Positions 29,411-47,128 of a stretch of 64,000 nucleotides of DNA are shown here, piece after piece. The position numbers and the translations under genes are program-made. The notes under the pieces are model-generated. The model was not told where the DNA came from. It searched no databases and was given only the letters and a program-made list of their open reading frames with translations. This DNA comes from Natrinema salaciae (lineage in GTDB: Archaea > Halobacteriota > Halobacteria > Halobacteriales > Natrialbaceae). Where the stretch lies: contig NZ_FOFD01000003.1 of NCBI RefSeq assembly GCF_900110865.1, forward strand, positions 124,001-188,000, written 5' to 3'. Position 1 is the first letter of the stretch. Each line of letters starts with the position of its first letter.

Positions 29411-29520
29411 GCGTTCGTGTTCGCTCACTCGTCGCGCGGTTCGTTCGCCAACCGGTGACGCCGCGAGCGGCGACCGGTCGGGATCGATACGGTCCGCGGG
29501 TCGTCCGGCCTGCCGTCCGC

Positions 29521-31342: not shown

Positions 31343-33499
31343 TCAGATTCGCCGGAGCAGGTCGAGGACGTCCGCGAAGCCGATGCGGTCGTTGCCGTCG
31401 AAGTCGAACGCGTCGGGGTTGTCCTGGACGCCCTCGGAATCGAGGTGCTCGTAGAAGGCATCGACGTCGGCGTGGGTCGTTTCGCCGTCGCCGTCGACGT
31501 CGTCGTACAGGGCGTCGCCGTCCGGATCACGCGCCTCGTACTCGCCGACCTGGATCGTATCGCTGGCCGGGTCGCCGATTTCGACCGTCAGGTCGACGGC
31601 GTCGTCGGGATCTGTGAGGGAGACCGTCTCGGTCGTTTCCGATTCGCCGACCGTCACCGTCACCTCGTGGTCGCCGAGATACGGCTCGGTCGCGTACGTC
31701 CCGTCGGCGTCGGTCGTTCCCGATTCCTCGGTCCACCACTCCTCGAAGACGAGTTCCCGATACGCCTCACCGTGCGCGCGGAGCACCCAGTCTTCGTCGT
31801 ACAGCGCGGCCGCCGGTCGCCAGTGCCGGTTCGCCCAGAATCCCCAGTGGAGGACGCTCTCGAGGGCCTCGTGACTGTACGCTGCGATGAGGAGGTCGCG
31901 CATGTAGTCGCGCCGCACCGCGATCTGGTCCTCGTCGTTCGGGTCCTTGAGGGTGATGTCGAGTTCGGTGATCTTCAGGGGGACGTCGAACGCAGCGAAC
32001 TCGTCGAAGATCTCGAGGAGTTCCGCGGGCGGACGCAGATAGTCCACGTCGAAGTGGCCCATGAACCCGATGCCGTCGACGTCGACCGCGGTGCCGTCGA
32101 GCCACTCGATGTACTCGCGGTACGGATCGCGATTGCCGTTGCGCGCCGAGATGACCCGTCCTTCGTTGACCCACATGGGCGCGGTGGGGTCCTCGTCGGT
32201 CGCCGCTGACCACCAGTCGACGACGGACTCCCGCCCGAGATCGTCGGTGATCTCGGAGAACATCACCGGATGATTGTGCATGTCCCACTCCAACAGTCGA
32301 CCCTCCATCGCCGCCGCGCGCTCGCGAATCGTCTCCTCGATCGCCGCGACGATCTCCGACTCGGGCCGGGTGTCGTCGACGCCCATCGCGTCGTACGTCC
32401 CCCACAGGAGCGTATGCCCTCGAGTCGGGACGTCGTGCCGATTGAGCCAGTCGATCGCGGCCTCGGTGTTCTCGGGGCCGAGACTCGAGCCGAACTCGCC
32501 CTCCCACGCGCCCCGCTTGAGGCCGTTCTCCGTGACCGCCTCGTTGAAGTTCTCGAGGAAAACGTCCTGGTACCGTTCGTTCGCGGTCAGTTCGTCGACG
32601 GCGATGGCGCTTCCGAAGCCGAACTCGTGGTCCCGCATCTCTACCGCCACGTCGGCGTCGGGAATCGGATCGCCGTCCTCGTCGGTGACTGTGACCGTCA
32701 GCGGCGCCCGGCGAATCTCGTCGATTCGTTCGCGGGCAGCCTCCCGCCAGGCGGCGCCCTCGGTACGCCCCTCGTAGCCGAATTCGACGCCGGAGCCGGG
32801 AAGGGCGTCGGTCTCGACCGATTGCCCGAAGTGAATCAGGGCCAGCCCGCCGACGTCGACCGTCTGTGACCCGTACCCCAGGAAGAGTTCCGTCCACCAG
32901 TCGCCGGGATCGCTCGCGTAGTCGAACTCGATCTGGAAGTAGAATCGTCGCCACTCGCGGGGGAGCGAGGGGGTCGCGGCGTTGACCACTTCGTTGGTCT
33001 CGAGGTTGTCCCCGTCCTTGGCGGTGTACTGAACGAGTCCGTCGGTGTCGCTCGCCGGGCCCTCCCGGAGGTACACCACGCCCAGCAGGACGTCGCCCGC
33101 GGCCACGCCGCGGTCCTCGACCGTCCCGTTCAGTATCGCGTCCCACGGGTTGGAGACATCCGCCCCGACCTCGAGGCGCATCGCCTCGTTGAACGGGAGA
33201 TCTGCCGGTGCCTGAATCTCCGCCGCCTCGACGTCCCCGATGACGTCGTAGGCGGCCATCGCTTCGGCTTCGCCGCTGCCGTAGCAAAACTCCCCCTGCG
33301 GGAGGCCGTGTGCTGCCAGCTCGTCGGCGAGGGTCGCGTAGTACGGATCGTCGACGCCAGACCACGATTGGGCCGTCGCCGACGCGACGGCGTGTCCCGC
33401 TCCGAGCGCCGCGAGCGATCCCAAAACTGGTCGACGGCCGATGGTTCGTCCTGGTGCGTCCACGCTCTCGCTGTCGTTTTCCGTTGGTTCGTCGATCAT
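31343..33499 (-). CDS. Dockerin-bearing GH10-like protein lacking the canonical acid/base
   Basis: A 718-residue Tat substrate (IGRRPVLGSLAALG). An N-terminal binding-type domain (about 45-235) precedes a GH10-like barrel (about 270-610) with RGHTLLWG, IGFMGHF and the nucleophile Glu512 in ITELDI. Where GH10 xylanases have WDVVNE, this protein has WDMHNHP, so the acid/base Glu is replaced by His410. A beta-sandwich (about 610-645: GTYATEPYLGDHEVTVTVG) and a dockerin (658-718, loops DVDGDGETTHAD and DFDGNDRIGFAD) follow. Either another residue donates the proton, or this is a binding or pseudo-enzyme. The start at MIDEPTEN is chosen because the best TATA box would place transcription start just upstream of it, excluding the ATG 11 codons earlier. 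Confidence 0.87.
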   Translation of the reverse strand: MIDEPTENDSESVDAPGRTIGRRPVLGSLAALGAGHAVASATAQSWSGVDDPYYATLADELAAHGLPQGEFCYGSGEAEAMAAYDVIGDVEAAEIQAPADLPFNEAMRLEVGADVSNPWDAILNGTVEDRGVAAGDVLLGVVYLREGPASDTDGLVQYTAKDGDNLETNEVVNAATPSLPREWRRFYFQIEFDYASDPGDWWTELFLGYGSQTVDVGGLALIHFGQSVETDALPGSGVEFGYEGRTEGAAWREAARERIDEIRRAPLTVTVTDEDGDPIPDADVAVEMRDHEFGFGSAIAVDELTANERYQDVFLENFNEAVTENGLKRGAWEGEFGSSLGPENTEAAIDWLNRHDVPTRGHTLLWGTYDAMGVDDTRPESEIVAAIEETIRERAAAMEGRLLEWDMHNHPVMFSEITDDLGRESVVDWWSAATDEDPTAPMWVNEGRVISARNGNRDPYREYIEWLDGTAVDVDGIGFMGHFDVDYLRPPAELLEIFDEFAAFDVPLKITELDITLKDPNDEDQIAVRRDYMRDLLIAAYSHEALESVLHWGFWANRHWRPAAALYDEDWVLRAHGEAYRELVFEEWWTEESGTTDADGTYATEPYLGDHEVTVTVGESETTETVSLTDPDDAVDLTVEIGDPASDTIQVGEYEARDPDGDALYDDVDGDGETTHADVDAFYEHLDSEGVQDNPDAFDFDGNDRIGFADVLDLLRRI

Positions 33500-33575
33500 A
33501 CGATTAAATTTTGGCTTGGTACCATACAACAAGTCCGAGGGATAAATAATTTACTAACAGATGAATTATTTTTTT
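33500..33575 (-). promoter_or_regulatory. A/T-rich promoter of the GH10-like gene
   Basis: TTATTTATC on the coding strand (about 33,540-33,549) is the best TATA candidate, about 42-50 bp before the chosen ATG, giving a leader of about 20 bases. A second A/T run (AAAATTTAATC) lies immediately before that ATG and would be too close to act as its TATA box. Confidence 0.42.
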
Positions 33576-33682: not shown

Positions 33683-34414
33683 TCAGATCTCCCGGAGAAG
33701 CCTGAGGACGTCGGCGAAGCCGATGCGGTCGTTGCCGTCGAAGTCGAACGCGTCGGGGTCGTCCTGCACGCCGTCGGCCTCGAGGTGCTCGTAGAAGGCG
33801 TCGACGTCGGCGTGGGTCGTTTCGCCGTCGCCGTCGACGTCGTTGTACAGCCCGTCGCCGTCCGGATCACGCGCCTCGTACTCGCCGACCGGGATCACGT
33901 CTCGCTGAACGAACCTGATCTCCTCGATCTCGATCGCACCGCTGCCGGCGTCCCAGAAGGTCAGCCACACGTCCTGGATCGACGACGGATCGACGCCGAC
34001 GGCCGAGAGATCGATTCGGACCGTCGCGAACGCCGTGTCGATTGTCTCGTCCGTGAGCGCCCCCAGCGGAGCTTCGACATCGTCGATCTCGACGTAGACC
34101 TCGCTCTCCTCGCCGCCGTCGTCGCCGCGAACGTCGAGTTCGAGGTGGCTGTACCCCGAGAGGTCGGTCCGGACGTTGCTGAGGAACCACCCGTCGTCGT
34201 CGAACGCGAGTCGCAGCGCGTCGCCGACGCGCTCGCCGGTCCCGTCCCCGTTCTCGAGGGCCCCCGCGCTCGAGTACTCGCCGAGGCGGTTCTCGCCCGG
34301 CCAGTCGGAGAAGTCCTCGAGGACAAGGGTGTCGGCGTCATCTGCAGCGGCGGTCGCGGTCGAATCGACCCGCCCCGCGGATCGGTTCGTGGCGCTCTCG
34401 ATTCTGGATGCCAT
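33683..34414 (-). CDS. Small binding-module plus dockerin protein
   Basis: A 243-residue protein consisting of one beta-sandwich-like module (about 30-160: LVLEDFSDWPGENRLGEYS, LSGYSHLELDVRGDDGGEE, IDDVEAPLG, WDAGSGAIEIEEIRFV) and a dockerin (183-243; loops DVDGDGETTHAD and DFDGNDRIGFAD). No catalytic domain is present. The module is shared with the 575-residue secreted protein, so a carbohydrate-binding role is inferred. No Tat or Sec signal is visible: the N-terminus is MASRIESATNRSAGRVD, although ATAAADDAD just before the module looks like the end of a signal-peptide cleavage region. It may be N-terminally truncated or use another route. The ATG at 34,414 is favoured over one six codons upstream by the TATA-like GATAAAAAT about 26-35 bp away. 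Confidence 0.8.
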   Translation of the reverse strand: MASRIESATNRSAGRVDSTATAAADDADTLVLEDFSDWPGENRLGEYSSAGALENGDGTGERVGDALRLAFDDDGWFLSNVRTDLSGYSHLELDVRGDDGGEESEVYVEIDDVEAPLGALTDETIDTAFATVRIDLSAVGVDPSSIQDVWLTFWDAGSGAIEIEEIRFVQRDVIPVGEYEARDPDGDGLYNDVDGDGETTHADVDAFYEHLEADGVQDDPDAFDFDGNDRIGFADVLRLLREI

Positions 34415-34480
34415 ATTGGTAACAATAAACATAGTGAGTGATAAAAATAGTGGTTACTTATAGCAAATCAATATGACTGT
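34415..34480 (-). promoter_or_regulatory. A/T-rich promoter of the small dockerin protein
   Basis: CTATTTTTAT on the coding strand lies about 26-36 bp before the ATG, the right distance for leaderless transcription. The region between the two flanking genes is otherwise unremarkable. Confidence 0.45.
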
Positions 34481-34489
34481 CGGCTGCAG

Positions 34490-36007
34490 TCAGATTCGCC
34501 GGAGTAGGTCGAGGACGTCCGCGAAGCCGACGCGGCCGTTCTCGTCGAAGTCGAACGCGTCGGGGTTGTTCTGCACGCCGTCGGACTCGAGGTGCTCGTA
34601 GAAGGCATCGACGTCGGCGTGGGTGGTCTGGCCGTCGCCGTCGACGTCGTTGTACAGCCCGTCGCCGGTCGTATCCCGTGCTTCGTAGTCGCCGATCCCG
34701 ATCCAGTCGGACCCGTTTTCGTCGCCGTCTTCGCCGACGATCATGTCGTCTTTCGTCTCCTCGAGCCACTGCCGGACGAACCACCCCATCTGTTCGGGGT
34801 CGTCTTTCAGCTCCCACGGCTCCCCCGCGCCGTCGCCCGGCGAGTCGAAGAACGTCGGCGCCCAGGTATCGTCGAAACACCACGCGATCCAGCCCATGTT
34901 CTCGTAGGATTCCATCCACTCGCGGACGGGTTCGCCCCACTCGCTCGTCGTTCCGAATTCGACGCTCTCCCGGAACTCCTCGGCGGGGTCCCAGCCGAAC
35001 TCGGTGCAGACGACGGGAACGTCCTCGGCCGGCGCGCCGTACTCCGGATCGAACGGGCCGACCTCGTACGCGTCGTCTCCCTCCCCGCGCTCGAGCGTGT
35101 CGTACGGGAGCCCGTTGTCCGGGTAGATGTGGCCGGCGTAGATCAGGTTCTCCCCGTCGAAGGGGTACTCGGCGGCGAACTTGGTCCGCGAGGTCCAGTC
35201 GGGAGAGCCGATGACGATCGGCGTTTCGGGGGCCTCCTCGCGAATCAGGTCGACCCAGGACTGGGCGGTGTCGCGCCACAGCATCCACTCGTCTTCCTTG
35301 GTTCCGACCTCCGGGCCGTACTCCCCGTATTCCGACCACGCAACCGGGAGCGTCGGTTCGTTGTACAGTTCGAAGAGGACGTTCTCGTCGTCGGCGAACG
35401 CGGGTGCGACCGCGCCCCAGAACTCCCGCAGCAGCTCGTCGGTGCCGACCCAGGGATCGAACCCGAGACCGTCGAGGCTGTCCGCCCACCCGTCCTCGAC
35501 CATCTCCTCGGCCTGATTCAACACGTCTACGTACGGTCGAATGAGGTGGAAGTCGATCATCGCGTAGACGCCCCGATCGGCGAGCAGGTCGACAGCCGGC
35601 CGCAGGAGTTCGTCGACGACGTACGCCGGTCCCTGCTCGTGGACCGCGTTCTCGACGATCGGCAGCCTGACGGTGTTCGGATACCACTGTTCCCCGTCCG
35701 TCGCGTGCTCGAGGACCTCCCGCTGAGTCCTCGGGTAGTACCCCTCCTGCATGTAATCCAGCGACGCCGGTGAGAGCCCGCGGAGTTTCACCCGCTCGCC
35801 GTCCTCCGTGACGATCCACTTCCCGTCGGTGTGGAGCCGCGGCGTCGGGTTGTCGACCGCTGCTGCCGACCCGGCCAGTCCGCCGAGTGCGAGGCCGGCC
35901 GTCCCGACGCCGGCCGCTTTCACGAACGTCCGTCGCGTCGGCCGGAGCGATCCCGCGTTCGTCCGTGCCGTTCGTCGCTTCTCACTGAAATTATCCTTTC
36001 TAACCAT
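34490..36007 (-). CDS. Dockerin-bearing GH5 cellulase-type enzyme
   Basis: A 505-residue Tat substrate (PTRRTFVKAAGVG, signal to about 50). The GH5 barrel (about 55-425) has DFHLIRP, the acid/base Glu217 in FELYNEPT, HIYPDN and the nucleophile Glu336 in CTEFGWD. The dockerin is at 445-505; its lead segment is DTTGDGLYNDVDGDG instead of the DPDGDGLYDDVDGDG found in most island dockerins, a variant it shares with the GH10 xylanase. Calcium loops are DVDGDGQTTHAD and DFDENGRVGFAD. It has its own promoter with a TATA box 24-31 bp upstream, so it is a single-gene unit. Beta-1,4-glucanase activity is the likely function. Confidence 0.9.
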   Translation of the reverse strand: MVRKDNFSEKRRTARTNAGSLRPTRRTFVKAAGVGTAGLALGGLAGSAAAVDNPTPRLHTDGKWIVTEDGERVKLRGLSPASLDYMQEGYYPRTQREVLEHATDGEQWYPNTVRLPIVENAVHEQGPAYVVDELLRPAVDLLADRGVYAMIDFHLIRPYVDVLNQAEEMVEDGWADSLDGLGFDPWVGTDELLREFWGAVAPAFADDENVLFELYNEPTLPVAWSEYGEYGPEVGTKEDEWMLWRDTAQSWVDLIREEAPETPIVIGSPDWTSRTKFAAEYPFDGENLIYAGHIYPDNGLPYDTLERGEGDDAYEVGPFDPEYGAPAEDVPVVCTEFGWDPAEEFRESVEFGTTSEWGEPVREWMESYENMGWIAWCFDDTWAPTFFDSPGDGAGEPWELKDDPEQMGWFVRQWLEETKDDMIVGEDGDENGSDWIGIGDYEARDTTGDGLYNDVDGDGQTTHADVDAFYEHLESDGVQNNPDAFDFDENGRVGFADVLDLLRRI

Positions 36008-36123: not shown

Positions 36124-37506
36124 TTACACCCGCCGGAGGAGGTCGAGGACGTCCGCGAAGCCGACGCGGCCGTTCCCGTCGAAGTCGAACGCGTCGGGGT
36201 TTTCCTGCACGCCGTCGGCCTCGAGATGCTCGTAGAAGGCGTTCACGTCGGCGTGGGTCGTCTGGCCGTCGCCATCGACGTCGTCGTACAGCCCGTCACC
36301 GTCGGGGTCTCGCGCCTCGTGCTCGCCGATCTGAATCGTTTCCGTCGCGTCGTCGGTCGTCACCGTCGTCTCGACGACCGGCGACCAGCCGCCGTCGTTC
36401 CCGGCCGCGACGCCGACCTCGTAGGTCGTTCCGGGCGTCAGGTTCGCGATCGTGGCCGTCGGTTCGGACGTGGTCGTCCTCCGGTCGCCGTCGAGGGTGA
36501 CGTCGTACGTCGTGGCCGCGTCGACGCTCGTCCAGCCGAGTTCGATCGTCGTCGCCGTGACCTCGTTCGTCCACACGTCGTCGGGCGACGCGGGCGGGGT
36601 CGGTCCGGCGTCGCTCTCGAGGCCGCTTTCGTAGGTCGTGCCGTCGACCGTGAGGTCGAGGGAGGTGTACGTCACCTCACCGCTGGCCCCCGCCCAGTAC
36701 TCGTTGCCGACCTCGACGCCGGTGAGCGTCAGGTCCTCGCTGACGCCGTGCTCGTCGGTCAGGTAGTCGCCAATCGCCGCGAGATCGACCTGCCCCGTCG
36801 ACGCGCCGCCGGCGATCCGAAAGATGTGGAACGTCCACTCCCGGTCGTAGTCCGCCCAGTGGTCGATCTGATTGCCAAACTGGTCGGTCAGGACGTCTTC
36901 TTCCTCCATGTAGTGGTCGTGGCCGCCGCCCCAGTCGAGCACCAGCATGATCTCGTGGGTGATCGGCGGATTCTCCGAGTCCCGCTCCCCGTCCAGGAGC
37001 CACCACTCCTCGGCGAGATCCCACTCGCCGCCGCCGATGTCGACGTCGACGTCGAACTCGAGGACGAGTTCGTCGATATCGCCGCGCCGGGTCGGCAGCT
37101 CCGGGATTCCGGTGTCGGCACCCCACGGTCGCCCGCCGCAGAACGCCTCGGGGTAGTTGATCCCGTCGCCGACCGCGCTGAACTGGTAGCCGTACCGTCC
37201 GTCGTCGTAGACCCGGATACACTGCTCGGAGTTGGGCATTCCCCACTTGTTGTTCATGAGGTGCCAGTGGCCGTCGCCGAGTTCGAAGGTGTCCCAGTCG
37301 CCACACGTCTCCCGTTCGATCGACTGGGCGGCGGCCGTCGAGACGCCGCCGAGCGCGAGCGCACTCGCCCCGATGGCGCCGGCCCGGAGCACGGACCGGC
37401 GGGAGCGCGCCTCGGCCGCCCCGCTGCTCGCGGTCTCGGAATTCGTCCGTTCGGTTCGTCGGTCTTCTCGTGTGTCGCGTCGGGTCATTGTCATAGTCGC
37501 CTGCAA
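36124..37506 (-). CDS. Dockerin-bearing GH12-type endoglucanase
   Basis: A 460-residue Tat substrate (RSRRSVLRAGAIG, signal to about 60). The catalytic jelly-roll (about 65-290) shows GH12 hallmarks: WHLMNNKWGM (GH12 NN-WG), the nucleophile Glu185 in THEIMLVLDWGG, and Glu269 in VGNEYWAG as acid/base candidate. GH12 enzymes hydrolyse beta-1,4-glucan or xyloglucan with retention. A fibronectin type III spacer follows (about 305-390, TTIELGWTSVDAATTYDV), resembling the FN3 units of the scaffoldin. The dockerin covers 400-460, loops DVDGDGQTTHAD and DFDGNGRVGFAD, ending in RRV where most others end RRI. No A/T-rich promoter precedes it. It may be read from the GH5 gene upstream, across the decayed dockerin remnant. 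Confidence 0.85.
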   Translation of the reverse strand: MQATMTMTRRDTREDRRTERTNSETASSGAAEARSRRSVLRAGAIGASALALGGVSTAAAQSIERETCGDWDTFELGDGHWHLMNNKWGMPNSEQCIRVYDDGRYGYQFSAVGDGINYPEAFCGGRPWGADTGIPELPTRRGDIDELVLEFDVDVDIGGGEWDLAEEWWLLDGERDSENPPITHEIMLVLDWGGGHDHYMEEEDVLTDQFGNQIDHWADYDREWTFHIFRIAGGASTGQVDLAAIGDYLTDEHGVSEDLTLTGVEVGNEYWAGASGEVTYTSLDLTVDGTTYESGLESDAGPTPPASPDDVWTNEVTATTIELGWTSVDAATTYDVTLDGDRRTTTSEPTATIANLTPGTTYEVGVAAGNDGGWSPVVETTVTTDDATETIQIGEHEARDPDGDGLYDDVDGDGQTTHADVNAFYEHLEADGVQENPDAFDFDGNGRVGFADVLDLLRRV

Positions 37507-37579: not shown

Positions 37580-37930
37580 TCAGATCCGCCGGCACAGATC
37601 GAGCACGTCGGCGAAGCCGATGCGGTCGTTGCCGTCGAAGTCGAACGCGTCGGGGGTTGGTCTGGACGCCCTCGCCCTCGAGGTGGGCGGAAAGGGCATC
37701 GCCGTCGGTGTTGGTGGTCCGGCCGTTGCCGTCGGCGTCGTCGTAGAGCCCGTCGCCGTCCGGGTCCTGGGGCTCGTACTCGCCGACCTGGATCGTCTCG
37801 TCGCCCCATTGTCCAGGTCAACGAACTCCGAGACCGCGAGGACCACCGGCGCAGGGTAGTTGATCGCCAACTCGTTAGTCGAGCACGACCCGGTGACGTC
37901 GACGGACGACAGCGCCGTGCCGGCACGCCG
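37580..37930 (-). pseudogene. Decayed C-terminus of another dockerin protein
   Basis: Three successive reading frames together spell the end of a dockerin protein. One frame carries TGSCSTNELAINYPAPVV and EFVDLDNG. A second carries DETIQVGEYEPQDPDGDG, then DADGNGRTTNTDGDAL. The first frame returns with PDAFDFDGNDRIGFADVL ending DLCRRI. At about 37,648-37,662 the sequence has an extra G compared with the matching position of intact neighbours, explaining one shift; the other lies near 37,800. The first calcium loop is also degraded (DADGNGRTTNTD). No signal peptide or catalytic domain survives. It is probably the leftover of a duplication or deletion between the neighbouring dockerin genes. 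Confidence 0.7.
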
Positions 37931-37953
37931 GCGTCGAGCGGGGAGCGCCGCCG

Positions 37954-39993
37954 TCAGATGCGGCGGAGCAGATCGAGGACGTCCGCAAAGCCGATGCGAC
38001 CGTTGCCGTCGAAGTCGAACGCGTCGGGGTTGTCCTGCACGCCGTCGGCGTCGATGTTCTCGTAGAAGGCGTTGACGTCGGCGTGGGTGGTCTGGCCGTC
38101 GCCGTTGACGTCGTCGTAGAGCCCGTCGCCGTCCGGGTCCTGGGGCTCGTACTCGCCGACCTGGAGCGTGTCGTCGACGCTTCCCGTCTCGAACGGCACC
38201 AGGTCGTCCTTGTGCATCTCGAGCCGGTCCTTCAGGTACTGGCCGCTGTCCTCCCCGCCGAGCAGCTCCCACTCGCAGGGAAGCTCCTCACAGCCGACCG
38301 GGATGTCCGCCATCGGCGTGTCGTAGAAGTTGTCGTTGACGAGCTCGAGGTCGCCCTCCTCGGGGGCGCCCGGGTACTCGAACATCTTCGGCAGCCAGCG
38401 GACGTCGGCACACCAGCCGATCCAGCTGATCCGGTCGTCCTGCTCGACCGCGTTGAGGAACGGCTCGCCGTACTCGAAGGTCGTGCCCAGTCCGGTCGTC
38501 GAGCCGCGAAGCCAGTGGGAGACCTCCGGGTCGTTGATCCAGCCGAACTCGGAGATGGCGATGGGGTGGTGGTCCATCGCGTTCTGGAGCCCCGCCGCCT
38601 CGTAGGCCTCCCACCCCCAGCAATCGGGCTGGTCGACGCTATCGGGCGGCGCGATGTAGGGGTCCTCGAGTTCTTTCCCGGTCTCGGCCTCGACGGCCTC
38701 GGGGCTCTTGTAATCCGTGTCGTTGAACCAGTTGTTCACCTGGCTGACGTCGTGGCCCGCGTAGTTGTGCCAGGTGACGGCGATGTTGTCGTACCCTGCC
38801 TCGTTGAAGTTCCGCCAGTGGAGCGCCTGGATCGACTGACACCAGCCGGGGACGCCGACCAGCAGGACGCGATCGGACTGATACTCCCTGATCTTCTCGA
38901 TGATCGGACCCATGAAGTCGTCGACGAACGTGTCCCAGAGCGGCTTCTGCTTGATCGCTCCACAGCCCTGGACCGGCCCCCAGATCCCCGGTGCCGTCGG
39001 CTCGTTGTACGGCTCGAAGATCACGTGGGGTTCGTCGGCGTACCGCTCTGCCACGGTATCCCAGAACATGAGGACTTCCTCGAGCAGTTCCTCGTTGACC
39101 GTCCAGTTCTCGTACGCGTACGGCGTTCCGGGGATGTCGCTCTCGTCGACGATACCGGCCCAGCCGTCGTACCCCGGCGTGAGCTCGTTGATGGTGACCT
39201 GGTCGACGTGACCCCACGAGCCCGGCGCCTCCTCGCCGAACGCCTCGTGGGTGTTGTACGCCCAGTAGTTCGTATAGTCGCTGTTGTACGGAAGGTGGTT
39301 CTCCGCGGCGGCGGGTCGCTCCTTGCCCGGCGGCTGCTCGTGCCAGTGACGGTGGTAGTCGACGATGCAGTAGACGCCGCGCTCCTTACAGCGCTCGACG
39401 ATCGGGTCGTAGTGGGTCTCGAGGTAGTCGTCGAGTTCCGCCTGCGTGAACGCGACCGGCTGTGGCGGTCGCATCTTCCGCCGGTCGTCGTCGACTACGT
39501 CGGGTGATTCGAGCTCGCCCGGTTCGTACTCGGGCCCGGTGTGCCCCATCGGGTGCTCGCCGATGTCCTGCGGCTGGGCGGGGACGCGGATGGCCCGCGG
39601 GTACCAACCCTGCTCGGGGTCCGTGACCATATCGAGGAGCTGCGTCGGCGTCTTCCCGCGGAGGAACCGCGTCCGGTGGAGCCGCTTCGGGTCCGGGATG
39701 CTGAGCCCCCGCATTTTGAAGGTCTCGCCGTCCTCGTTGACGATTCGATTGTCGCTGCTGACCGTCAGGTTCTGAAACTCCTGGATACCGGTGGCTGCGG
39801 CGCTGCCGGTGAGGCCTGCCCCCAGCGCGAGTCCCGCGGCTCCCACGCCCGCCGTCGTCCGCATTACGCCGCGTCGGGTCAACTCGATCGACGACTCCGA
39901 GTCGTTCGACGCCTGATTCAGCACGCGACGCCGCGTGTTTCCGTTCGTCGATGTCGATTCGTCCGTCCGCTGTGTTGTGTCGTTGTCTTGCAT
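37954..39993 (-). CDS. Dockerin-bearing GH5 enzyme, large form
   Basis: A 679-residue Tat substrate (LTRRGVMRTTAGVG, signal to about 67). The GH5 domain is unusually long (about 75-600), with inserts between barrel elements. Motifs are DYHRHWH, the acid/base Glu331 in FEPYNEPT, WHNYAGHD and the nucleophile Glu482 in ISEFGWI. The dockerin (619-679) is of the subtype with DVNGDGQTTHADVNAFYENID, shared only with the GH5 gene next to the scaffoldin. The two also share the EPQDPDGDG linker, and the encoding DNA is identical over at least 136 bp. Its own promoter region contains an 18-bp palindrome. Cellulase-type activity is likely. Confidence 0.9.
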   Translation of the reverse strand: MQDNDTTQRTDESTSTNGNTRRRVLNQASNDSESSIELTRRGVMRTTAGVGAAGLALGAGLTGSAAATGIQEFQNLTVSSDNRIVNEDGETFKMRGLSIPDPKRLHRTRFLRGKTPTQLLDMVTDPEQGWYPRAIRVPAQPQDIGEHPMGHTGPEYEPGELESPDVVDDDRRKMRPPQPVAFTQAELDDYLETHYDPIVERCKERGVYCIVDYHRHWHEQPPGKERPAAAENHLPYNSDYTNYWAYNTHEAFGEEAPGSWGHVDQVTINELTPGYDGWAGIVDESDIPGTPYAYENWTVNEELLEEVLMFWDTVAERYADEPHVIFEPYNEPTAPGIWGPVQGCGAIKQKPLWDTFVDDFMGPIIEKIREYQSDRVLLVGVPGWCQSIQALHWRNFNEAGYDNIAVTWHNYAGHDVSQVNNWFNDTDYKSPEAVEAETGKELEDPYIAPPDSVDQPDCWGWEAYEAAGLQNAMDHHPIAISEFGWINDPEVSHWLRGSTTGLGTTFEYGEPFLNAVEQDDRISWIGWCADVRWLPKMFEYPGAPEEGDLELVNDNFYDTPMADIPVGCEELPCEWELLGGEDSGQYLKDRLEMHKDDLVPFETGSVDDTLQVGEYEPQDPDGDGLYDDVNGDGQTTHADVNAFYENIDADGVQDNPDAFDFDGNGRIGFADVLDLLRRI
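38041..38176 (-). repeat. Dockerin-coding direct repeat, copy A
   Basis: This 136-bp segment, covering the linker and first half of the dockerin, is identical base for base to 45,341-45,476 in another GH5 gene, 7.3 kb away in the same orientation. Such identity at synonymous sites indicates very recent duplication or gene conversion. Confidence 0.85.
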
Positions 39994-40169: not shown

Positions 40170-41915
40170 TCAGATCCGCCGGAGGAGGTCGAGGACGTCC
40201 GCGAAGCCGATACGGTCGTTGCCGTCGAAGTCGAACGCGTCGGGGTTGTCCTGCACGCCGTCGGCCTCGAGGTGCTCGTAGAACGCGTTGACGTCGGCGT
40301 GGGTCGTCTGGCCGTCGCCGTCGACGTCGTTGTACAGCCCGTCACCGGTCGTGTCCCGGGCCTCGTAGTCACCCACCTGAACCGGCTCGTCGGACCGGGA
40401 GTCGTCGACGGTCACGACGACGTCGTGCACACCGTCGGGCTCGGTGACGGCGACCGTCCGTGTCGTCGACTCGCCGCCGACGGTGACGGTGAGGTCGTGG
40501 CGTCCGAGGAACGCCGTCGTCTCGAAAGTGCCGTCCGCATCGGTCGTTCCCGATTCCTCGGTCCACCACTCGTCGAACACGAGATCCGTGTAGACGTCGT
40601 AGGCGGGTTTCGGCGTCCAGTCCTCCTCGAACAGCGGCGCGTCGGGCTCGGAGCCGTCGTAGTCCGGCGCCCAGTGATCGCCGTCCCAGAACCCCCACAC
40701 GAGGAAGTCGCTCGTCGCGGGGTGACTGAAGAACGTCTTCAGGAACTGGCGGAAGAACGCGGCCTGCTGATCCTGACTCTCCCAGTCGCCCTGGAACATG
40801 TCGAACTCGGAAGCAGTGAGGGTGGCTCCGTAGTCGGCGTACAGATCCAGCCCCGCGACGATTTCGTCGGGCGTGAGTCGCTGGTCGACGGCGAAGTGAC
40901 ACTGGAACCCGATGCCGTCGAGCTCGATTCCCTCGCCGCGGAGGAACTCGATCTGCTCCGTGTACCAGTCTCGAGCGTACTCCTCGGGTCCGGAGAGGGT
41001 GTTGAAGTCGTTGACCGCGATGTCGACGCCCGCCTCGTCGGCGACCGTCTGCGCTCGCTCGTACCAGTCGGCGAGCAACTCCGATCGCCAGGGGACGACG
41101 TCTCCCTCCCACGGCCGGTCCTCGTCGACGGCGTCGTCGTAGACGCCGACCATGAGGTCGTGGGCGTGCAGGGCCTCGTTGACGACGTCCCACTCCTCGA
41201 TGTCGTCGCCGTAGTGGCGGATGATCGTCTCGATATGCTCGAGGCTCCGCTCGCGGATCGTCTCCGCGTCGCGTTCGTCGATGGCTGTCTCGACGTCCGC
41301 CGGGACGGCGTACGTGTCCCGGTTGCCCCAGACGCAGGTGTGGCCGCGAACGTCGAGTTCGCGGTCGAGGAGCCACTCGGTCGCGGCGTCGGCGGTTTCC
41401 CGATTCTCCTCCCAGAACCGCCACTTGTGGTGGTTCCCGAGCACGGCCGTGTTGAACAGTTCCGGCACGCGCTCGCGGTACGCCTCGAGGTCGGCCTCGT
41501 CGACCGGGTCGCCCTCGATGGACCCCTCGACGAGCAGTTCCGCGTTCACCTGGGTCCCAAACCCGTACGCGTGTTCCCGCATCTCGACGTCGACGGTCGC
41601 GTCCGGGATCGGCGTTCCGTCGGCGTTCTGAACGACGATCTCGAGGTCGCTCGTCCGGTGTTGCTCGATGCGCTCGTCGGCCGCCAGTTCCCAGTCGTCG
41701 GCCTGTACGGCGGCGGTTCCGGTCGTCGCGCCGAGCACACCGACCGCGCTCGCGGTTCCGATCGCACCCACCGAGCGGAGGTACTCCCGCCGCTCGAGCG
41801 GGGCGGCGCGGTCGTCGGTCGGCCGCCGGTCGCGTCGATCCTCGTCGGGACCGCCGCTCGCTTCGGAGCGATTCGATTCGTGTCGGTCGTGTCGTGTCCC
41901 GTCCGTGTCAGTCAT
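40170..41915 (-). CDS. Dockerin-bearing GH10 xylanase
   Basis: A 581-residue Tat substrate (LERREYLRSVGAIG). The GH10 domain (about 90-450) has RGHTCVWG, the acid/base Glu247 in EWDVVNEALH, FQCHFAVD and the nucleophile Glu370 in TASEFDM, all as in active xylanases. This contrasts with the GH10-like protein 7 kb downstream. A short beta-sandwich (about 465-505, GTFETTAFLGRHDLTVTVGGE) and the dockerin (521-581) follow. The dockerin has the DTTGDGLYNDVDGDG lead and a second loop DFDGNDRIGFAD. The start at MTDTDGTRH lies 48 bp after the stop of the anchor-cohesin gene, making it the last gene of the GH5-scaffoldin-anchor-GH10 unit; an ATG 17 codons upstream would overlap that gene. Confidence 0.93.
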   Translation of the reverse strand: MTDTDGTRHDRHESNRSEASGGPDEDRRDRRPTDDRAAPLERREYLRSVGAIGTASAVGVLGATTGTAAVQADDWELAADERIEQHRTSDLEIVVQNADGTPIPDATVDVEMREHAYGFGTQVNAELLVEGSIEGDPVDEADLEAYRERVPELFNTAVLGNHHKWRFWEENRETADAATEWLLDRELDVRGHTCVWGNRDTYAVPADVETAIDERDAETIRERSLEHIETIIRHYGDDIEEWDVVNEALHAHDLMVGVYDDAVDEDRPWEGDVVPWRSELLADWYERAQTVADEAGVDIAVNDFNTLSGPEEYARDWYTEQIEFLRGEGIELDGIGFQCHFAVDQRLTPDEIVAGLDLYADYGATLTASEFDMFQGDWESQDQQAAFFRQFLKTFFSHPATSDFLVWGFWDGDHWAPDYDGSEPDAPLFEEDWTPKPAYDVYTDLVFDEWWTEESGTTDADGTFETTAFLGRHDLTVTVGGESTTRTVAVTEPDGVHDVVVTVDDSRSDEPVQVGDYEARDTTGDGLYNDVDGDGQTTHADVNAFYEHLEADGVQDNPDAFDFDGNDRIGFADVLDLLRRI

Positions 41916-41962
41916 TGTTCGTGCTGGGGTACGAGGTCGTGTTGCCGGTGCGAGGCTGTCGG

Positions 41963-42676
41963 TCACTCGTGGTTCTCGATCGTCGGCGATCCACCGGAGC
42001 GGTCGGAATGTCGCCTGAGCGCGTACGCGACACCGCCCGTCGCCCCCGCCACCGCGGTCAGGGGCCCGAACCCGGGATTCTCGTCGTCGGACGCCGTCCC
42101 GCCGTCCGTCGATTCGTCGCCGTCGCCGACGGTCAGCGTCGCCGTCTCGATCTCGGGCTCGACGGGTTCGCCGTTGCCGTCCTCGATCGGGAGCGAATCG
42201 CCCTCCGCGACCTCGACGGTGGTCTCGCCGTCGGCCGCGCCCTCGAGTTCGACGGTACCGAACGCGACGTCGGTCGCGCCCGCCTCGACCTCCTGTGCCG
42301 CTTCGAGGGTCGCCGTCTCGTCGGTCACCTCGACGGTGTTGAACATGGCGTCGGCGAAGGGCCCACCGAGCTCGGCGTCGACGACGGTCGCGACGTCGGT
42401 GTCGACGCTGACCGCGAGGTTGAACCCGGAGAGGCCGTCGGGAGCCGCGGTCAGGCCGAGATCGACGGTCGTCGTCTCGCCCGGATCGATCTCGGCTGCC
42501 ACCGCCGTTACCGTTACCGTCGGCGTGACCGTCTCCCCGACGACGGGTCCGGCCGCCGAGCCGACGCCGACGAGACCGACGGCCGCCAGGAACGGCCGTC
42601 GCCCCATCGGGCCGTCGGTCGCCGTGGTCCGCTTATCTGCCCGTTCTACCCGTTCTATTTCCGTGTTTTCGTGCAT
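41963..42676 (-). CDS. Single-cohesin surface anchor protein
   Basis: A 237-residue Tat substrate (MGRRPFLAAVGLVG, about 24-47). Residues 51-183 form one cohesin-like domain (TVTVTAVAAEIDPGETTTVDLGL, GLSGFNLAV, AFGTVELEG), nearly identical in its core to the third cohesin of the scaffoldin. An acidic linker leads to NPGFGPLTAVAGATGGVAYAL followed by RR (200-222). This is a PGF-CTERM-like tripartite sorting signal that haloarchaeal archaeosortase would process, leaving the protein lipid-anchored at the surface. A short hydrophilic tail after the RR is slightly longer than usual. It is 120 bp after the scaffoldin and 48 bp before the xylanase. It should hold one dockerin enzyme at the cell surface. 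Confidence 0.87.
   Translation of the reverse strand: MHENTEIERVERADKRTTATDGPMGRRPFLAAVGLVGVGSAAGPVVGETVTPTVTVTAVAAEIDPGETTTVDLGLTAAPDGLSGFNLAVSVDTDVATVVDAELGGPFADAMFNTVEVTDETATLEAAQEVEAGATDVAFGTVELEGAADGETTVEVAEGDSLPIEDGNGEPVEPEIETATLTVGDGDESTDGGTASDDENPGFGPLTAVAGATGGVAYALRRHSDRSGGSPTIENHE
42241..42410 (-). repeat. Cohesin-coding repeat, copy in anchor gene
   Basis: By eye this 170-bp segment differs at only two positions from 43,635-43,804 in the scaffoldin gene. It covers the core of the cohesin (LEGAADG back to the VDTDVAT region). The identity exceeds what protein constraint requires and indicates recent gene conversion or duplication. Confidence 0.85.
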
Positions 42677-42795: not shown

Positions 42796-45204
42796 TCAGG
42801 CGACGGTGATCTCGACGGTGTGCGTCGTCTGGCGTCCGCGCTGGTCCGTCGCGGTCAGCGACACCGTGTAGGTGCCACTCGAGTCGTAGGCGTGGCCGGC
42901 GTACCAGCCGCTGGCGGACGTGCCGTCACCGAGGTCCCACGCCAGCTGTTCGACCCAGTTCTGATCGGTCGTGTTGTCCGTGACGTGGAAATCGATGCGC
43001 TCGCCGACCTCGACCGACGTGGCGCTCGGATCGATCTTCGCGAGATACTCGACATCGATCGGAATCTCGCCGTCGACCGGCTCCCAGGCGTAGAACTCCT
43101 CGTATTTGGGCTCCGTGCCCTGGTTCGTCCACTGCGCTTCCCAGTCCTCGCCGTTCCAGTGGACCCGGTCGCCCTCCTCGTAGAGCGTGTCGGGGTCCCA
43201 CTCGGGGTACTCGCTGTCGCCGTTGTCGCCATCGCCGTCGTCGGCTTCGTCGGTCGTGGCCGAGACCGTCGCGGTGTCGGTCTCCGTCTCCGACTCACCG
43301 ACGGCGCTGACGCCGATCTCGTAGGTGGTGCCGGCCTCGAGTCCGGAGACAGTGGCGCTGCTCGTGGTCGTGGTCGTCTCCTGCGCTCCATCGACGTAGA
43401 CGACGTACTCGACGGCGTTCGGATCGGGACTCCACGAGATCTCGATCGACGTCTCGTCGACGGTTACGACCTGGAGGTTCTGGGGGACGCTCGGCGGTTC
43501 GTCGTCGGGTTCGCCGTCGCCGACGGTCAGCGTCGCCTCCTCGATCTCGGGGCCGACGGGTTCGCCCTCGATGTTCTCGATCGGGAGCGTCTCGCTCTCC
43601 GTGACATCGAGGACGGTCTCGCCGTCGGCCGCACCCTCGAGTTCGACGGTACCGAACGCGACGTCGGTCGCGCCCGCCTCGACCTCCTGTGCCGCTTCGA
43701 GGGTCGCCGTCTCGTCGGTCACCTCGACGGTGTTGAACATGGAGTCGGCGAAGGGCCCACCGAGCTCGGCGTCGACGATGGTCGCGACGTCGGTGTCGAC
43801 GCTGGTCTGGACGTTGAACCCGGAGAGACCGTTCGGTGCGACGGTCAGGCCGAGATCGACGGTCGTCGTCTCGCCCGGGTCGATCTGTGCGTCCGCGAGG
43901 TCGACGGTGACCGTCGGCGTTCCGGGACCCTCGCCCGCGGCGGTCGTGGCCTCGACCGTCGCTTCGTCGGACGCGGCGCCGTTTTCACCGACGGCGCTGA
44001 CGCCGATCTCGTAGGTGGTGTCAGCCTCGAGTTCGGTGATGGTGGCGGTGGTCGAGGTCGTGGTCGTCTCCTGCTCGCCGTCGACGGAAATGGCGTACTC
44101 GACGGCGTCAGAGACCGGACTCCACGCGATTTCGACCGAGGTCTCGTTCTCGGCGACGACCTCGAGGTCCTGGGGGACGCTCGGCGGTTCGTCGTCGGGT
44201 TCGCCGTCGCCGACGGTCAGCGTCGCCTCCTCGATCTCGGGGCCGACGGGTTCGCCGTCGATGTTCTCGATGGGGAGCGTCTCGCTCTCCGCGACGTCGA
44301 CGGCGGTCTCGCCGTCGGCCGCGCCCTCGAGTTCGACGGTGCCGAACGTGACGCCGGTCGCACCCGCCTCGATTTCCTGTACCGCTTCGAGGGTCGCCGT
44401 GCCGTCGGTCACGTCGACGGTGTTGAACATGGAGTCGGCGAAGGGCCCACCGAGCGCGGCGTCGGTGATCGTCGCGACCGCGGTGTCGACGCTGACCTCG
44501 AGGTTGAATCCGGAGAGTCCGTTGGGCGCGCTGTTCAGCCCGAGACCGACGGTCGTCGTCTCACCCGGGTCGACCTGCTCGGCGGCGAGGTCGACGGTGA
44601 CCGTCGGCGTCACGGGCTCGCCGGGCCCCTCGCCGACGGTCAGGGTCGGCGCGTCGTAGACGGCCTCCTCGACGAGCCCGCCGTCGGGCGGCGTCAGCGA
44701 GAAGTCCGCGAGTTCGGGCTCGGTAGCGCCGTCGCCCCGCCCCTTGAGGTGGAGCGTCGCGATCTCGTAGGCGGTCTCGTCGATGCCGTTACCGTCGAAC
44801 GACTGGGCGTCGATCGACGAGACGGCACCGCCCGCGTCCTCGATGTCCTGGTTTATCGTGTCCTCGAGTTGGGACGGCGCGTGCTCGCCCAGTTCGATTT
44901 CGGTGATCTGGGCGACGGCGGGGTCGACCGCGACCTCGATGGAAGCGCCGAGCGATCCCGCGGGGGAGTTCTCGACCCGGACCGTCGCGGTCGTGCTCGC
45001 GCCGACCGCGAGCTGTGCATCGGCGAGGTCGACCGTCACCGTCGGCAGGTCCTCTTGAGCCGCGACCGCGGACGTTCCGGTCGCGAGAACGGCAGCACTG
45101 GCGCCGGCGGCCCGTATGAAGTTACGTCGCGAGGTGGACGCGCTCGTCTGGCGGTCGGTTTCGGCGAACTGTTCCTCGTCGTGTGTCTCGATATTGTCAG
45201 TCAT
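42796..45204 (-). CDS. Cellulosomal scaffoldin: three cohesins, two FN3, CBM5/12-like, PKD
   Basis: An 802-residue Tat substrate (TSRRNFIRAAGASAA, signal to about 50). Domains in order: a divergent cohesin-like domain (about 54-190), cohesin 2 (200-332), FN3 (341-421), cohesin 3 (429-562), FN3 (571-651), an acidic linker, a CBM5/12 (chitin/cellulose-binding, WDPDTLYEEGDRVHWNGEDWEA, about 665-711) and a C-terminal PKD domain (about 721-802, LAWDLGDGT). Each cohesin has the pattern PTVTVDLA..Q..PGETTTV, GLSGFN, ELGGPFADSMFN and FGTVELEG. There is no catalytic domain, dockerin or C-terminal sorting signal, so it is an exported, substrate-binding, multi-enzyme platform. It follows a GH5 dockerin gene by 49 bp and precedes the anchor cohesin by 120 bp. 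The ATG giving MTDNIETHDEE is chosen over one nine codons upstream. Confidence 0.88.
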   Translation of the reverse strand: MTDNIETHDEEQFAETDRQTSASTSRRNFIRAAGASAAVLATGTSAVAAQEDLPTVTVDLADAQLAVGASTTATVRVENSPAGSLGASIEVAVDPAVAQITEIELGEHAPSQLEDTINQDIEDAGGAVSSIDAQSFDGNGIDETAYEIATLHLKGRGDGATEPELADFSLTPPDGGLVEEAVYDAPTLTVGEGPGEPVTPTVTVDLAAEQVDPGETTTVGLGLNSAPNGLSGFNLEVSVDTAVATITDAALGGPFADSMFNTVDVTDGTATLEAVQEIEAGATGVTFGTVELEGAADGETAVDVAESETLPIENIDGEPVGPEIEEATLTVGDGEPDDEPPSVPQDLEVVAENETSVEIAWSPVSDAVEYAISVDGEQETTTTSTTATITELEADTTYEIGVSAVGENGAASDEATVEATTAAGEGPGTPTVTVDLADAQIDPGETTTVDLGLTVAPNGLSGFNVQTSVDTDVATIVDAELGGPFADSMFNTVEVTDETATLEAAQEVEAGATDVAFGTVELEGAADGETVLDVTESETLPIENIEGEPVGPEIEEATLTVGDGEPDDEPPSVPQNLQVVTVDETSIEISWSPDPNAVEYVVYVDGAQETTTTTSSATVSGLEAGTTYEIGVSAVGESETETDTATVSATTDEADDGDGDNGDSEYPEWDPDTLYEEGDRVHWNGEDWEAQWTNQGTEPKYEEFYAWEPVDGEIPIDVEYLAKIDPSATSVEVGERIDFHVTDNTTDQNWVEQLAWDLGDGTSASGWYAGHAYDSSGTYTVSLTATDQRGRQTTHTVEITVA
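43635..43804 (-). repeat. Cohesin-coding repeat, copy in scaffoldin gene
   Basis: Partner of 42,241-42,410, with about 168 of 170 bases identical and the same orientation, 1,394 bp apart. The corresponding part of scaffoldin cohesin 2 (about 44,325-44,495) is similar but clearly more diverged. Confidence 0.85.
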
Positions 45205-45253
45205 TGGTATGTCAGCGTATGGTGTTGTCACAGGCTACTCGCTCGCGATCCGA

Positions 45254-47128
45254 TTAGATCCGTCTGAGCAGGTCGAGGACGTCCGAGAAGCCGATGCGGC
45301 CGTTGCCGTCGAAGTCGAACGCATCGGGGTTGTTCTGGACGCCGTCGGCGTCGATGTTCTCGTAGAAGGCGTTGACGTCGGCGTGGGTGGTCTGGCCGTC
45401 GCCGTTGACGTCGTCGTAGAGCCCGTCGCCGTCCGGGTCCTGGGGCTCGTACTCGCCGACCTGGAGCGTGTCGTCGCCGGAGTAGGGATCGCCGTCGACC
45501 GGCCCGTCACCGATGTGCTTGTCGTTCTTGCCGTTGTCGGCGTCCGGGTAGGGCTCGTCGCCGGCAGCGGGTTCGTGGCGCTCGTCGACCAGTTCCTGGT
45601 TGAGCTGGTGCCACCAGACGCCGGGCGTCTCGTCGTTGAGGTAGTTCATCCAGTCGTCGGCGCCCTTCGCGCCGTCGTTCTGCCCCGGCGTGCCGTGTTC
45701 GAACATATTCGGCTCGTAGGTGTGATCGAACGACCACGCGAGGGGGTGGATGTCGTGGTTCCTGATGAACGACTCGTAGCCCTCGATGTACGGCTCGCAG
45801 TTGCCGTCGTGTTCGCCGCTGCAGTCCATCCAGGGCGTGTCGACGTGCATGCCGCCGCCCTCGATCCAGCCGAACTCGCTGAAGAAGATCGGCACGTGCT
45901 CCGACGGCTGCCCGAAGTAGGTCTCGAGCGGCCGCAGATCGTCCTGCGTGTAGACGTGGGCGGTGTAACACATGTTTTCCGCCTCGAACTCGTTGAACGG
46001 TGTCCAGTAGGTGTACTGGCTCCACCGCGGACTCCCGATCGTGATCACGTGGCCGGGTGCGTTCTCCTCGACCGTATCGACCCACGGCTGGGCGCGATCG
46101 ACCCACAGGTCGTACCAGGCCTTCATGTCCTCGTGGGCGACGTCGTAGTTGGACGCGTCACCGTCGCCGGGCGCCACGTCGGGATCGGAGAGTTCGCCCG
46201 CCTGCCGCTGTGGACCGCCCCAGTCGCCGCCGTACGGACCGGTCGGCTCGTTGTAGACGTCGAAGATCACGTGATCGTCGCCCGCGTATCGGTCGGCGAC
46301 GACCTCCCAGAACGTGTGCAGTTCCTCGTCGAGCGCGTTCGAGACCTCCGGTGGCTCGAGGAAGATGTCGTCCTCGTCGAGGTCGAACGCCTCGAGAATG
46401 TTCTGCTCGTCGATCAGGTTCCAGATCTCGTCGACCTGATCCTCGCCGTGCCAGAGGACGCCGCGTTCGCCACAGACTTCCGGATGCCGCCAGTCTTCGC
46501 CGCCGTCGGAGTTGCACTTCCAGACGTTGTCGGGAACGCCGTGGTTCTTGTGATCTTCCTGATGGAAGACCGGGTAGTGACGGTGGTAATCGATCATCAC
46601 GTAGGCGCCGCGCTGAGCGCCGAGTTCGACGAGGTCGTCGAGAAAGGTCTGACAGTACCACTCGACGTCGCTCGCGTCGAACTGCCCCGGCAGGGCCGGA
46701 CCCCAGTCGTCTCCGTGGGGCATCTCGTGCGGTGCCGGAGCACGCGTTCCGGCCGCGAGGAACGAGGGCATGACCGGTACCCGGACGACGTTCGTATACC
46801 AGCCCTGACTCTCGTCGGTCGCCAGCTGGAACGTCTCGGGTGCAGTCTGGCCCCGCCACGGGCGGCTCTGTTCGCCCGGATCGGCGATGTTCACTCCCTG
46901 GAGGATAACCTCGTTTCCGCTCGGGTCGACGAGCTTGTTCCCGTCTCGGGCCAGCGGCGGGAGGTCGGCCTCCTGTGCCATCGCGGAGTTGGCGATGCTA
47001 CCGAGGCCGCCGAATGCGATCACGCTCGTGCCGGTGGCCTTCATTATCGTTCGACGCGACGTCGAAACGTTCCGACCGGCGCGATTCGACTGCGCTTCTG
47101 AGTCGTGTGGGGTCGTCTGTTCTGACAT
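45254..47128 (-). CDS. Dockerin-bearing GH5 enzyme, first gene of the scaffoldin unit
   Basis: A 624-residue Tat substrate (TSRRTIMKATGTSV, signal to about 51). The long GH5 domain (about 55-530) has DYHRHYP, the acid/base Glu294 in FDVYNEPT, HVYTQDD and the nucleophile Glu418 in FSEFGWI. The dockerin (564-624) is the DVNGDGQTTHADVNAFYENID subtype shared with the large GH5 gene. It is the first gene after the A/T-rich spacer and starts the run GH5, scaffoldin, anchor cohesin, GH10 with short gaps. Enzyme and platform are therefore probably made together. Cellulase-type activity is the likely function; the exact GH5 subfamily is not resolved by eye. Confidence 0.9.
   Translation of the reverse strand: MSEQTTPHDSEAQSNRAGRNVSTSRRTIMKATGTSVIAFGGLGSIANSAMAQEADLPPLARDGNKLVDPSGNEVILQGVNIADPGEQSRPWRGQTAPETFQLATDESQGWYTNVVRVPVMPSFLAAGTRAPAPHEMPHGDDWGPALPGQFDASDVEWYCQTFLDDLVELGAQRGAYVMIDYHRHYPVFHQEDHKNHGVPDNVWKCNSDGGEDWRHPEVCGERGVLWHGEDQVDEIWNLIDEQNILEAFDLDEDDIFLEPPEVSNALDEELHTFWEVVADRYAGDDHVIFDVYNEPTGPYGGDWGGPQRQAGELSDPDVAPGDGDASNYDVAHEDMKAWYDLWVDRAQPWVDTVEENAPGHVITIGSPRWSQYTYWTPFNEFEAENMCYTAHVYTQDDLRPLETYFGQPSEHVPIFFSEFGWIEGGGMHVDTPWMDCSGEHDGNCEPYIEGYESFIRNHDIHPLAWSFDHTYEPNMFEHGTPGQNDGAKGADDWMNYLNDETPGVWWHQLNQELVDERHEPAAGDEPYPDADNGKNDKHIGDGPVDGDPYSGDDTLQVGEYEPQDPDGDGLYDDVNGDGQTTHADVNAFYENIDADGVQNNPDAFDFDGNGRIGFSDVLDLLRRI
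45341..45476 (-). repeat. Dockerin-coding direct repeat, copy B
   Basis: Identical over 136 bp to 38,041-38,176, in the same orientation. The shared DNA includes the EPQDPDGDG linker and the DVNGDG loop that define this dockerin subtype. Confidence 0.85.

Follow-up and report, generated by a model that had tools for sequence, protein, structure and literature searches.

A predicted three-cohesin scaffoldin in the haloarchaeon Natrinema salaciae, likely one of many haloarchaeal cellulosome-type loci

A review from 2025 mentions cellulosomes in anaerobic bacteria and in some anaerobic fungi, and in no other organisms (PMC12484212). Archaea that possess cohesin and dockerin domains are said to lack multi-cohesin scaffoldins, except for transporter-linked proteins of ANME archaea (PMC9012536). 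These archaeal scaffoldin-like proteins contain up to five cohesins and a dockerin of their own; as dockerin partners they commonly have ABC-transporter binding proteins rather than enzymes that degrade polysaccharides (PMC9012536). Haloarchaea that grow on cellulose attach firmly to it, and the insoluble form is attacked only by those of their cellulases that are bound to the cell (PMC4569967). Papers published in 2023 and 2024 describe the same haloarchaeal enzymes as those reported here without cohesins (PMC10267330, PMC10963439). A search confined to the open-access literature returned no description of a polysaccharide-degrading archaeal cellulosome or of haloarchaeal cohesins. In this study, a stretch of 64,000 nucleotides from N. 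salaciae (contig NZ_FOFD01000003.1, positions 124,001 to 188,000; hereafter the window) was analysed. One of its genes very probably encodes the primary scaffoldin of a haloarchaeal cellulosome-type system.

The longest open reading frame of this gene spans 42796-45231 on the minus strand, starts with GTG and encodes 811 aa. The initial annotation had placed the start at 45204; this ATG is likely the true start and is preferred here, because the orthologues begin at residue 10. Residue numbers are nevertheless counted from the GTG at 45231. The gene and its modules, in order from the N-terminus, are as follows:

42796..45204, minus strand: scaffoldin gene, 811 aa if counted from the GTG at 45231
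45058..45135, minus strand: Tat signal peptide (SRRNFIRAAGASAAV...), residues about 33-58
44626..45048, minus strand: cohesin 1, divergent type, residues 62-202, PF00963 match
44203..44610, minus strand: cohesin 2, residues 208-343, AlphaFold2 model and PDB cohesin matches
43942..44181, minus strand: FN3 module 1, residues about 351-430, Pfam fn3 in two stretches
43513..43920, minus strand: cohesin 3, residues 438-573, 84% identity to cohesin 2
43252..43491, minus strand: FN3 module 2, residues about 581-660, Pfam fn3
43084..43203, minus strand: CBM5/12-like module, residues 677-716, PF02839
42802..43038, minus strand: PKD module, residues 732-810, PF18911 at 49.9 bits

The order of Tat signal, cohesin 1, cohesin 2, FN3, cohesin 3, FN3, CBM5/12-like module and PKD agrees with the three cohesins, FN3 spacers and PKD module first read from the sequence, and is now supported by domain matches and homology. 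The FN3 and PKD modules score above their Pfam cut-offs. The Tat signal is kept in orthologues, with a Pfam TAT_signal score below the cut-off (18.6 bits). The initial annotation had also proposed a CBM5/12-like module. Its match to CBM_5_12 (PF02839) spans the whole profile and recurs in orthologues, but reaches only 24.0 bits against a cut-off of 26.2; a PDB sequence search with this stretch gave no match. As had been claimed, no catalytic family was found in the protein by Pfam and NCBIfam; these searches and a dockerin search likewise found no dockerin and no anchor of its own. The modular order recurs in orthologues that differ in cohesin and FN3 copy number, and thus the architecture is not due to chance.

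The cohesins fall into two kinds. Cohesin 2 is 84% identical to cohesin 3 and only 34% identical to cohesin 1, in line with the earlier reading of a pattern clear in two cohesins and divergent in the N-terminal one. The Pfam cohesin model (PF00963) matches cohesin 1 only (24.4 bits with neighbours, cut-off 24.1). Neither Pfam nor NCBIfam matches cohesins 2 and 3 or the cohesin of a neighbouring one-cohesin protein, and the system has probably been overlooked because these databases alone miss them. Cohesins 2 and 3 were assigned by homology to cohesin 1 (E 1e-8) and by predicted structure. Cohesin 2 was folded with AlphaFold2 from an alignment of nine cohesins taken from the window and two genomes, and the model (pLDDT 92.2, pTM 0.84) has nine strands. 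The absence of a nine-stranded cohesin fold had been named beforehand as the result that would speak against the assignment; the fold is present in this model. In a Foldseek search of the PDB, the first 26 matches of the cohesin 2 model were all cohesins (best E 2e-8), the archaeal 2xdh among them. After re-alignment, the leading PDB matches covered 124-130 residues at about 2.4 A, with Z of about 15 (15.3 for 2jh2 and 15.2 for the Clostridium cellulolyticum cohesin). The fold is assigned to cohesin 2 from the model and the PDB, to cohesin 1 from PF00963, and to cohesin 3 from its identity to cohesin 2. A model of the full-length scaffoldin (pLDDT 64, pTM 0.27) yielded one sensible structural match, the cohesin-FN3 pair 2w1n; its quality was too low for the relative placement of the modules, and it was rejected for that use.

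The scaffoldin gene lies in a cluster of 15 minus-strand genes that runs from 47128 down to 17905, covers 29 kb and encodes four cohesins in all. Neighbouring genes overlap by as much as 4 bases or are separated by up to 447 bases; the exception is ORF 27929-29899, whose start is overcalled. The other genes of the cluster are:

45254..47128, minus strand: GH5, C-terminal dockerin (residues 563-624)
41963..42676, minus strand: one-cohesin surface protein (putative), 237 aa, with Tat-like signal, cohesin at residues 51-186 and PGF-CTERM-like tail
40170..41966, minus strand: GH10, C-terminal dockerin
37954..39993, minus strand: GH5, C-terminal dockerin
36124..37506, minus strand: FN3 protein without assigned catalytic type, C-terminal dockerin
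34490..36007, minus strand: GH5, C-terminal dockerin
33683..34432, minus strand: short unassigned protein of 249 aa, C-terminal dockerin
31343..33532, minus strand: GH10, C-terminal dockerin
29521..31248, minus strand: Tat-type protein of 575 aa, no Pfam family, no dockerin
27929..29899, minus strand: GH5, C-terminal dockerin (longest ORF; the start is probably overcalled and the first part not translated)
26352..27905, minus strand: GH5, C-terminal dockerin
23804..26314, minus strand: BNR/sortilin-type propeller protein (F510_1955-like glycosylhydrolase), C-terminal dockerin
21253..23517, minus strand: M6-metalloprotease-like protein (sub-threshold), C-terminal dockerin
17905..21078, minus strand: PL11 rhamnogalacturonan lyase with ricin-B lectin module, C-terminal dockerin

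The products of twelve of the 15 genes end in a near-identical dockerin, about 62 residues long. Pfam and NCBIfam assign five of them to GH5, two to GH10 and one to PL11; the others are the propeller hydrolase, the M6-protease-like protein and two unassigned proteins. The scaffoldin, the one-cohesin protein and the 575-aa protein have no dockerin. The 447-base gap between two dockerin genes contains, at 37580-37780 on the minus strand, the second half of a further dockerin, out of frame with traces of the first half. To judge from its sequence, this fragment is the remnant of a lost or broken gene, and 37580-38272 was rejected as a thirteenth dockerin of the cluster. Elsewhere in the genome, four further proteins with cluster-type dockerins are encoded far from the scaffoldin (L032:5978-13464 and L034:5101-9036, on contigs C3 and C5): two GH10-like by eye, one Sde182/malectin protein and one of 1,311 aa. 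They could join the same complex.

The cluster dockerins have two F-hand repeats in which both loops keep the acidic/amide ligand pattern and a D at position 12, from which we infer that they bind calcium. Their match to the CelS dockerin is near end-to-end (E 9e-4). Ahead of their first calcium loop, haloarchaeal dockerins also carry an extra DxDGDGLYxD segment, which may be a third calcium site and is absent from the dockerins of the more distant genomes G030 and G032.

Several observations link these dockerins to the cohesins. Proteins with at least two cohesins occur in 16 of the 125 genomes of the family; the median dockerin count is 7 in these 16, against 0 in the remaining 109, none of which exceeds 3 (p 3e-12, a value that ignores kinship among genomes that are related and not independent samples). 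The Pfam dockerin counts are lower bounds, since many haloarchaeal dockerins score under the Pfam cut-off. The mere presence of a cohesin-family match was rejected as evidence, as 112 of the 125 genomes have one, mostly in a single protein of 250-340 aa. Within the cluster, the dockerins are on average 84% alike across enzyme families, and they are 43-71% alike to those of the clusters in other genomes. In a cohesin tree, cohesins 2 and 3 and the cohesin of the one-cohesin protein from N. salaciae form one clade, and the same holds in the lineage of genomes G007 and G008. Distances between cohesins and between dockerins correlate beyond the divergence of the scaffoldin C-terminus (partial r 0.58-0.62, permutation p 0.003-0.009), again among related genomes, and this correlation does not separate cohesin 1 from cohesins 2 and 3 as the dockerin partner. 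Taken together, the indirect evidence of co-occurrence, likeness within the cluster, the clades and the distance correlation argues that the dockerins and cohesins of the cluster are matched partners. One might instead regard these modules as generic beta-sandwich spacers and calcium-binding stalks that do not bind each other, on conventional free secreted enzymes. Type I dockerins do resemble EF-hand pairs, calmodulins also appear among the sequence matches of the cluster dockerin, the haloarchaeal dockerin was earlier read as substrate-binding (PMC10963439), and mutual binding is in our case something we infer. However, dockerins tend to be found in the same genomes as multi-cohesin proteins and diverge in step with them, some natural proteins bear both a cohesin and a dockerin, and specific binding of archaeal cohesin-dockerin pairs is reported in earlier work as cited in PMC9012536. 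We therefore consider this explanation very improbable.

Cohesin 1 does not fit a picture of a single specificity. In the tree it belongs to a separate conserved clade common to ten genomes. It is probably a conserved second type that takes a different partner.

The neighbouring one-cohesin protein would be anchored at the cell surface via archaeosortase A. Its tail is NPGFGPLTAVAGATGGVAYALRR, which scores 16.8 bits with the PGF-CTERM model (TIGR04126; cut-off 24.5); orthologues keep the tail, some in clearer forms such as IPGFGPSAAVIGAAGWIAYALGKR. Archaeosortase A is encoded in the N. salaciae genome (319 bits). The stop of the anchor gene overlaps the start of the GH10 gene at 40170..41966 by 4 bases, which suggests co-translation. 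The cohesin of this protein is 76% identical to cohesin 2. Because this cohesin and cohesins 2 and 3 are 76-84% identical, we propose docking at two places, the secreted scaffoldin or the surface cohesin. In the proposed mechanism, Tat would export all three kinds of protein, namely enzymes, scaffoldin and the small one-cohesin protein, in folded form. The secreted scaffoldin would receive the calcium-loaded C-terminal dockerins of the enzymes on its cohesins 2 and 3, placing GH5, GH10 and PL11 enzymes side by side, and its CBM5/12-like module, with the FN3 spacers and PKD, would hold the complex on the polysaccharide. The neighbouring protein may also bind these dockerins with its single cohesin; attached to the cell surface by archaeosortase A through its PGF-CTERM-like tail, it would display enzymes much as OlpA does in Clostridium thermocellum. 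A complex on a three-cohesin scaffoldin would be small.

It could also be that enzymes are only displayed at the surface: the one-cohesin PGF-CTERM protein would hold them singly, the three-cohesin protein would be mainly a substrate-binding accessory, and no multi-enzyme complex would form. Single-cohesin proteins are common in haloarchaea, one of them pairs with a dockerin-bearing PhoX in the N. salaciae genome, and activity on insoluble cellulose is cell-bound in the literature (PMC4569967). However, several related genomes (loci L035, L073, L077 and L078) have a multi-cohesin scaffoldin and dockerin enzymes with no adjacent one-cohesin gene in the stretch examined, and relatives have scaffoldins with 8 to 14 cohesins. 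This makes display alone improbable. Most likely, the locus encodes a genuine cellulosome-type system, in an archaeal group whose members are mostly aerobic.

Cohesins also occur in other contexts in this genome. At C7:165197-168510 (L030:5198-8511), the gene for a PhoX-type alkaline phosphatase with both a cohesin and a dockerin precedes one for a cohesin protein whose tail is of the PGF type. Neighbours like these (880 aa and 250-480 aa) recur in many haloarchaea, which suggests that a phosphatase is served there by a conserved docking pair of non-cellulosomal kind. A membrane-type protein with a single cohesin, of a sort shared by most genomes of the family, is encoded at C7:154792-155598 (L029:4793-5599), adjoining the gene for a HerA-like-looking ATPase. 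At L031:5683-8279 (contig C2), a one-cohesin gene adjoins the gene for a Tat-type protein that has an internal dockerin near its N-terminus and no Pfam family.

Other species of Natrinema have related clusters, as do haloarchaea at a greater distance. The N. salaciae gene appears as one member of a widespread set of cellulosome-type loci in haloarchaea, and in some of these loci the scaffoldin is catalytic or self-anchored. It is likely that cellulosomes are widespread in the mostly aerobic haloarchaea, with at least three architectures. The first would be the secreted, CBM-bearing scaffoldins of Natrinema and its relatives, in which two or three cohesins are combined with modules of the FN3, CBM5/12-like and PKD types. 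The second would be catalytic GH5 scaffoldins of the Natronoglomus type with 8-10 cohesins: a frame of 1,768 aa in G007 has an N-terminal GH5 followed by 8 cohesins, and one of 2,096 aa in G008 has an N-terminal GH5 followed by 10. The third would be long, self-anchored scaffoldins: they have 8-14 cohesins and a terminal PGF-CTERM-like anchor, with a PGF-type tail on the 8-cohesin protein of G030 and on the 14-cohesin protein of G032 (2,087 aa). The dockerins of these two genomes look more bacterial, and they are of another type, since a refined dockerin model misses them while Pfam detects them. Under the same reading, Halococcoides would add adaptors with both modules, and each of the two deepest cohesin groups may have been acquired on its own. 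Halococcoides cellulosivorans has 64 dockerin and 14 cohesin matches, and one of its proteins combines three cohesins with a dockerin. For haloarchaea, GH5 proteins that reach 2,101 aa and contain 'yet undetectable domains' have been published (PMC10267330); this corresponds to the length of the catalytic GH5 scaffoldins found here.

The substrate of the complex may differ from cellulose. CBM5/12 modules often bind chitin. PL11, GH10 and the propeller hydrolase stand beside the GH5 enzymes, and no GH9 was found in the N. salaciae genome (4.86 Mb). This species is the only predicted cellulotroph without GH9 (PMC10267330). On the other hand, the cluster has five GH5 genes, and multiple GH5 with GH10 are a published mark of cellulose-growing haloarchaea (PMC10267330). 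A complex aimed mainly at hemicellulose, pectin or chitin is compatible with the scaffold mechanism, and we hold it to be a serious possibility, somewhat short of an even chance; this estimate concerns the substrate alone.

If the proposed scaffoldin function is true, archaea of an aerobic group that live at near-saturating salt also use the cellulosome architecture. This would help to explain why the haloarchaeal cellulases that attack insoluble cellulose are only the cell-bound ones (PMC4569967), and what the long GH5 proteins may contain as 'yet undetectable domains' (PMC10267330). Published annotations would be corrected, and salt-stable cohesin-dockerin pairs would become available for protein engineering.

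Among described loci, the cluster of Natronoglomus mannanivorans (genes 2716-2735) is of the same kind as that of N. salaciae. Its published lengths of 610, 1755, 258, 759, 589, 815, 835 and 490 aa (PMC10963439) match eight G007 genes in order, with 1755 counted from an internal Met of the 1768-aa frame. This indicates that the N. mannanivorans cluster encodes the 8-cohesin scaffoldin and a one-cohesin anchor. They were published as a 'GH5/CBM6 endoglucanase' and an 'S-layer glycoprotein', and cohesin, scaffoldin and cellulosome are not mentioned (PMC10963439). This scaffoldin differs from that of N. salaciae by its N-terminal GH5. The non-cellulosomal cohesin of Archaeoglobus fulgidus (2xdh; Foldseek rank 7, Z 14.5) is likewise archaeal and has the same fold as cohesin 2, but lies outside any multi-cohesin scaffoldin according to literature cited in PMC9012536. 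With three cohesins within a 29-kb enzyme cluster, the N. salaciae protein is not of this archaeal single-cohesin kind. It also differs from the ANME scaffoldin-like proteins in having no dockerin in its 811 aa, although some distant haloarchaeal relatives combine both modules.

In sum, at the level of sequence and model, the locus has several features of a cellulosome: at least two cohesins on a scaffoldin, the cohesin fold, several dockerin-bearing carbohydrate-active enzymes, and dockerins with F-hand repeats. Like the bacterial cellulosomes of C. thermocellum (CipA/OlpA) and C. cellulolyticum (CipC), it combines a scaffoldin that is non-catalytic, probably carbohydrate-binding and equipped with repeated cohesins, clustered glycosidase genes whose products bear type I dockerins, and a separate one-cohesin protein, predicted to be at the surface as OlpA is. 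It differs from them in its archaeal, halophilic host from a mostly aerobic class, in its predicted Tat-type export and in its FN3 and PKD modules. It has a CBM5/12-like module instead of CBM3, a predicted PGF-CTERM/archaeosortase anchor instead of SLH, the extra dockerin segment, and cohesins that are almost invisible to PF00963.
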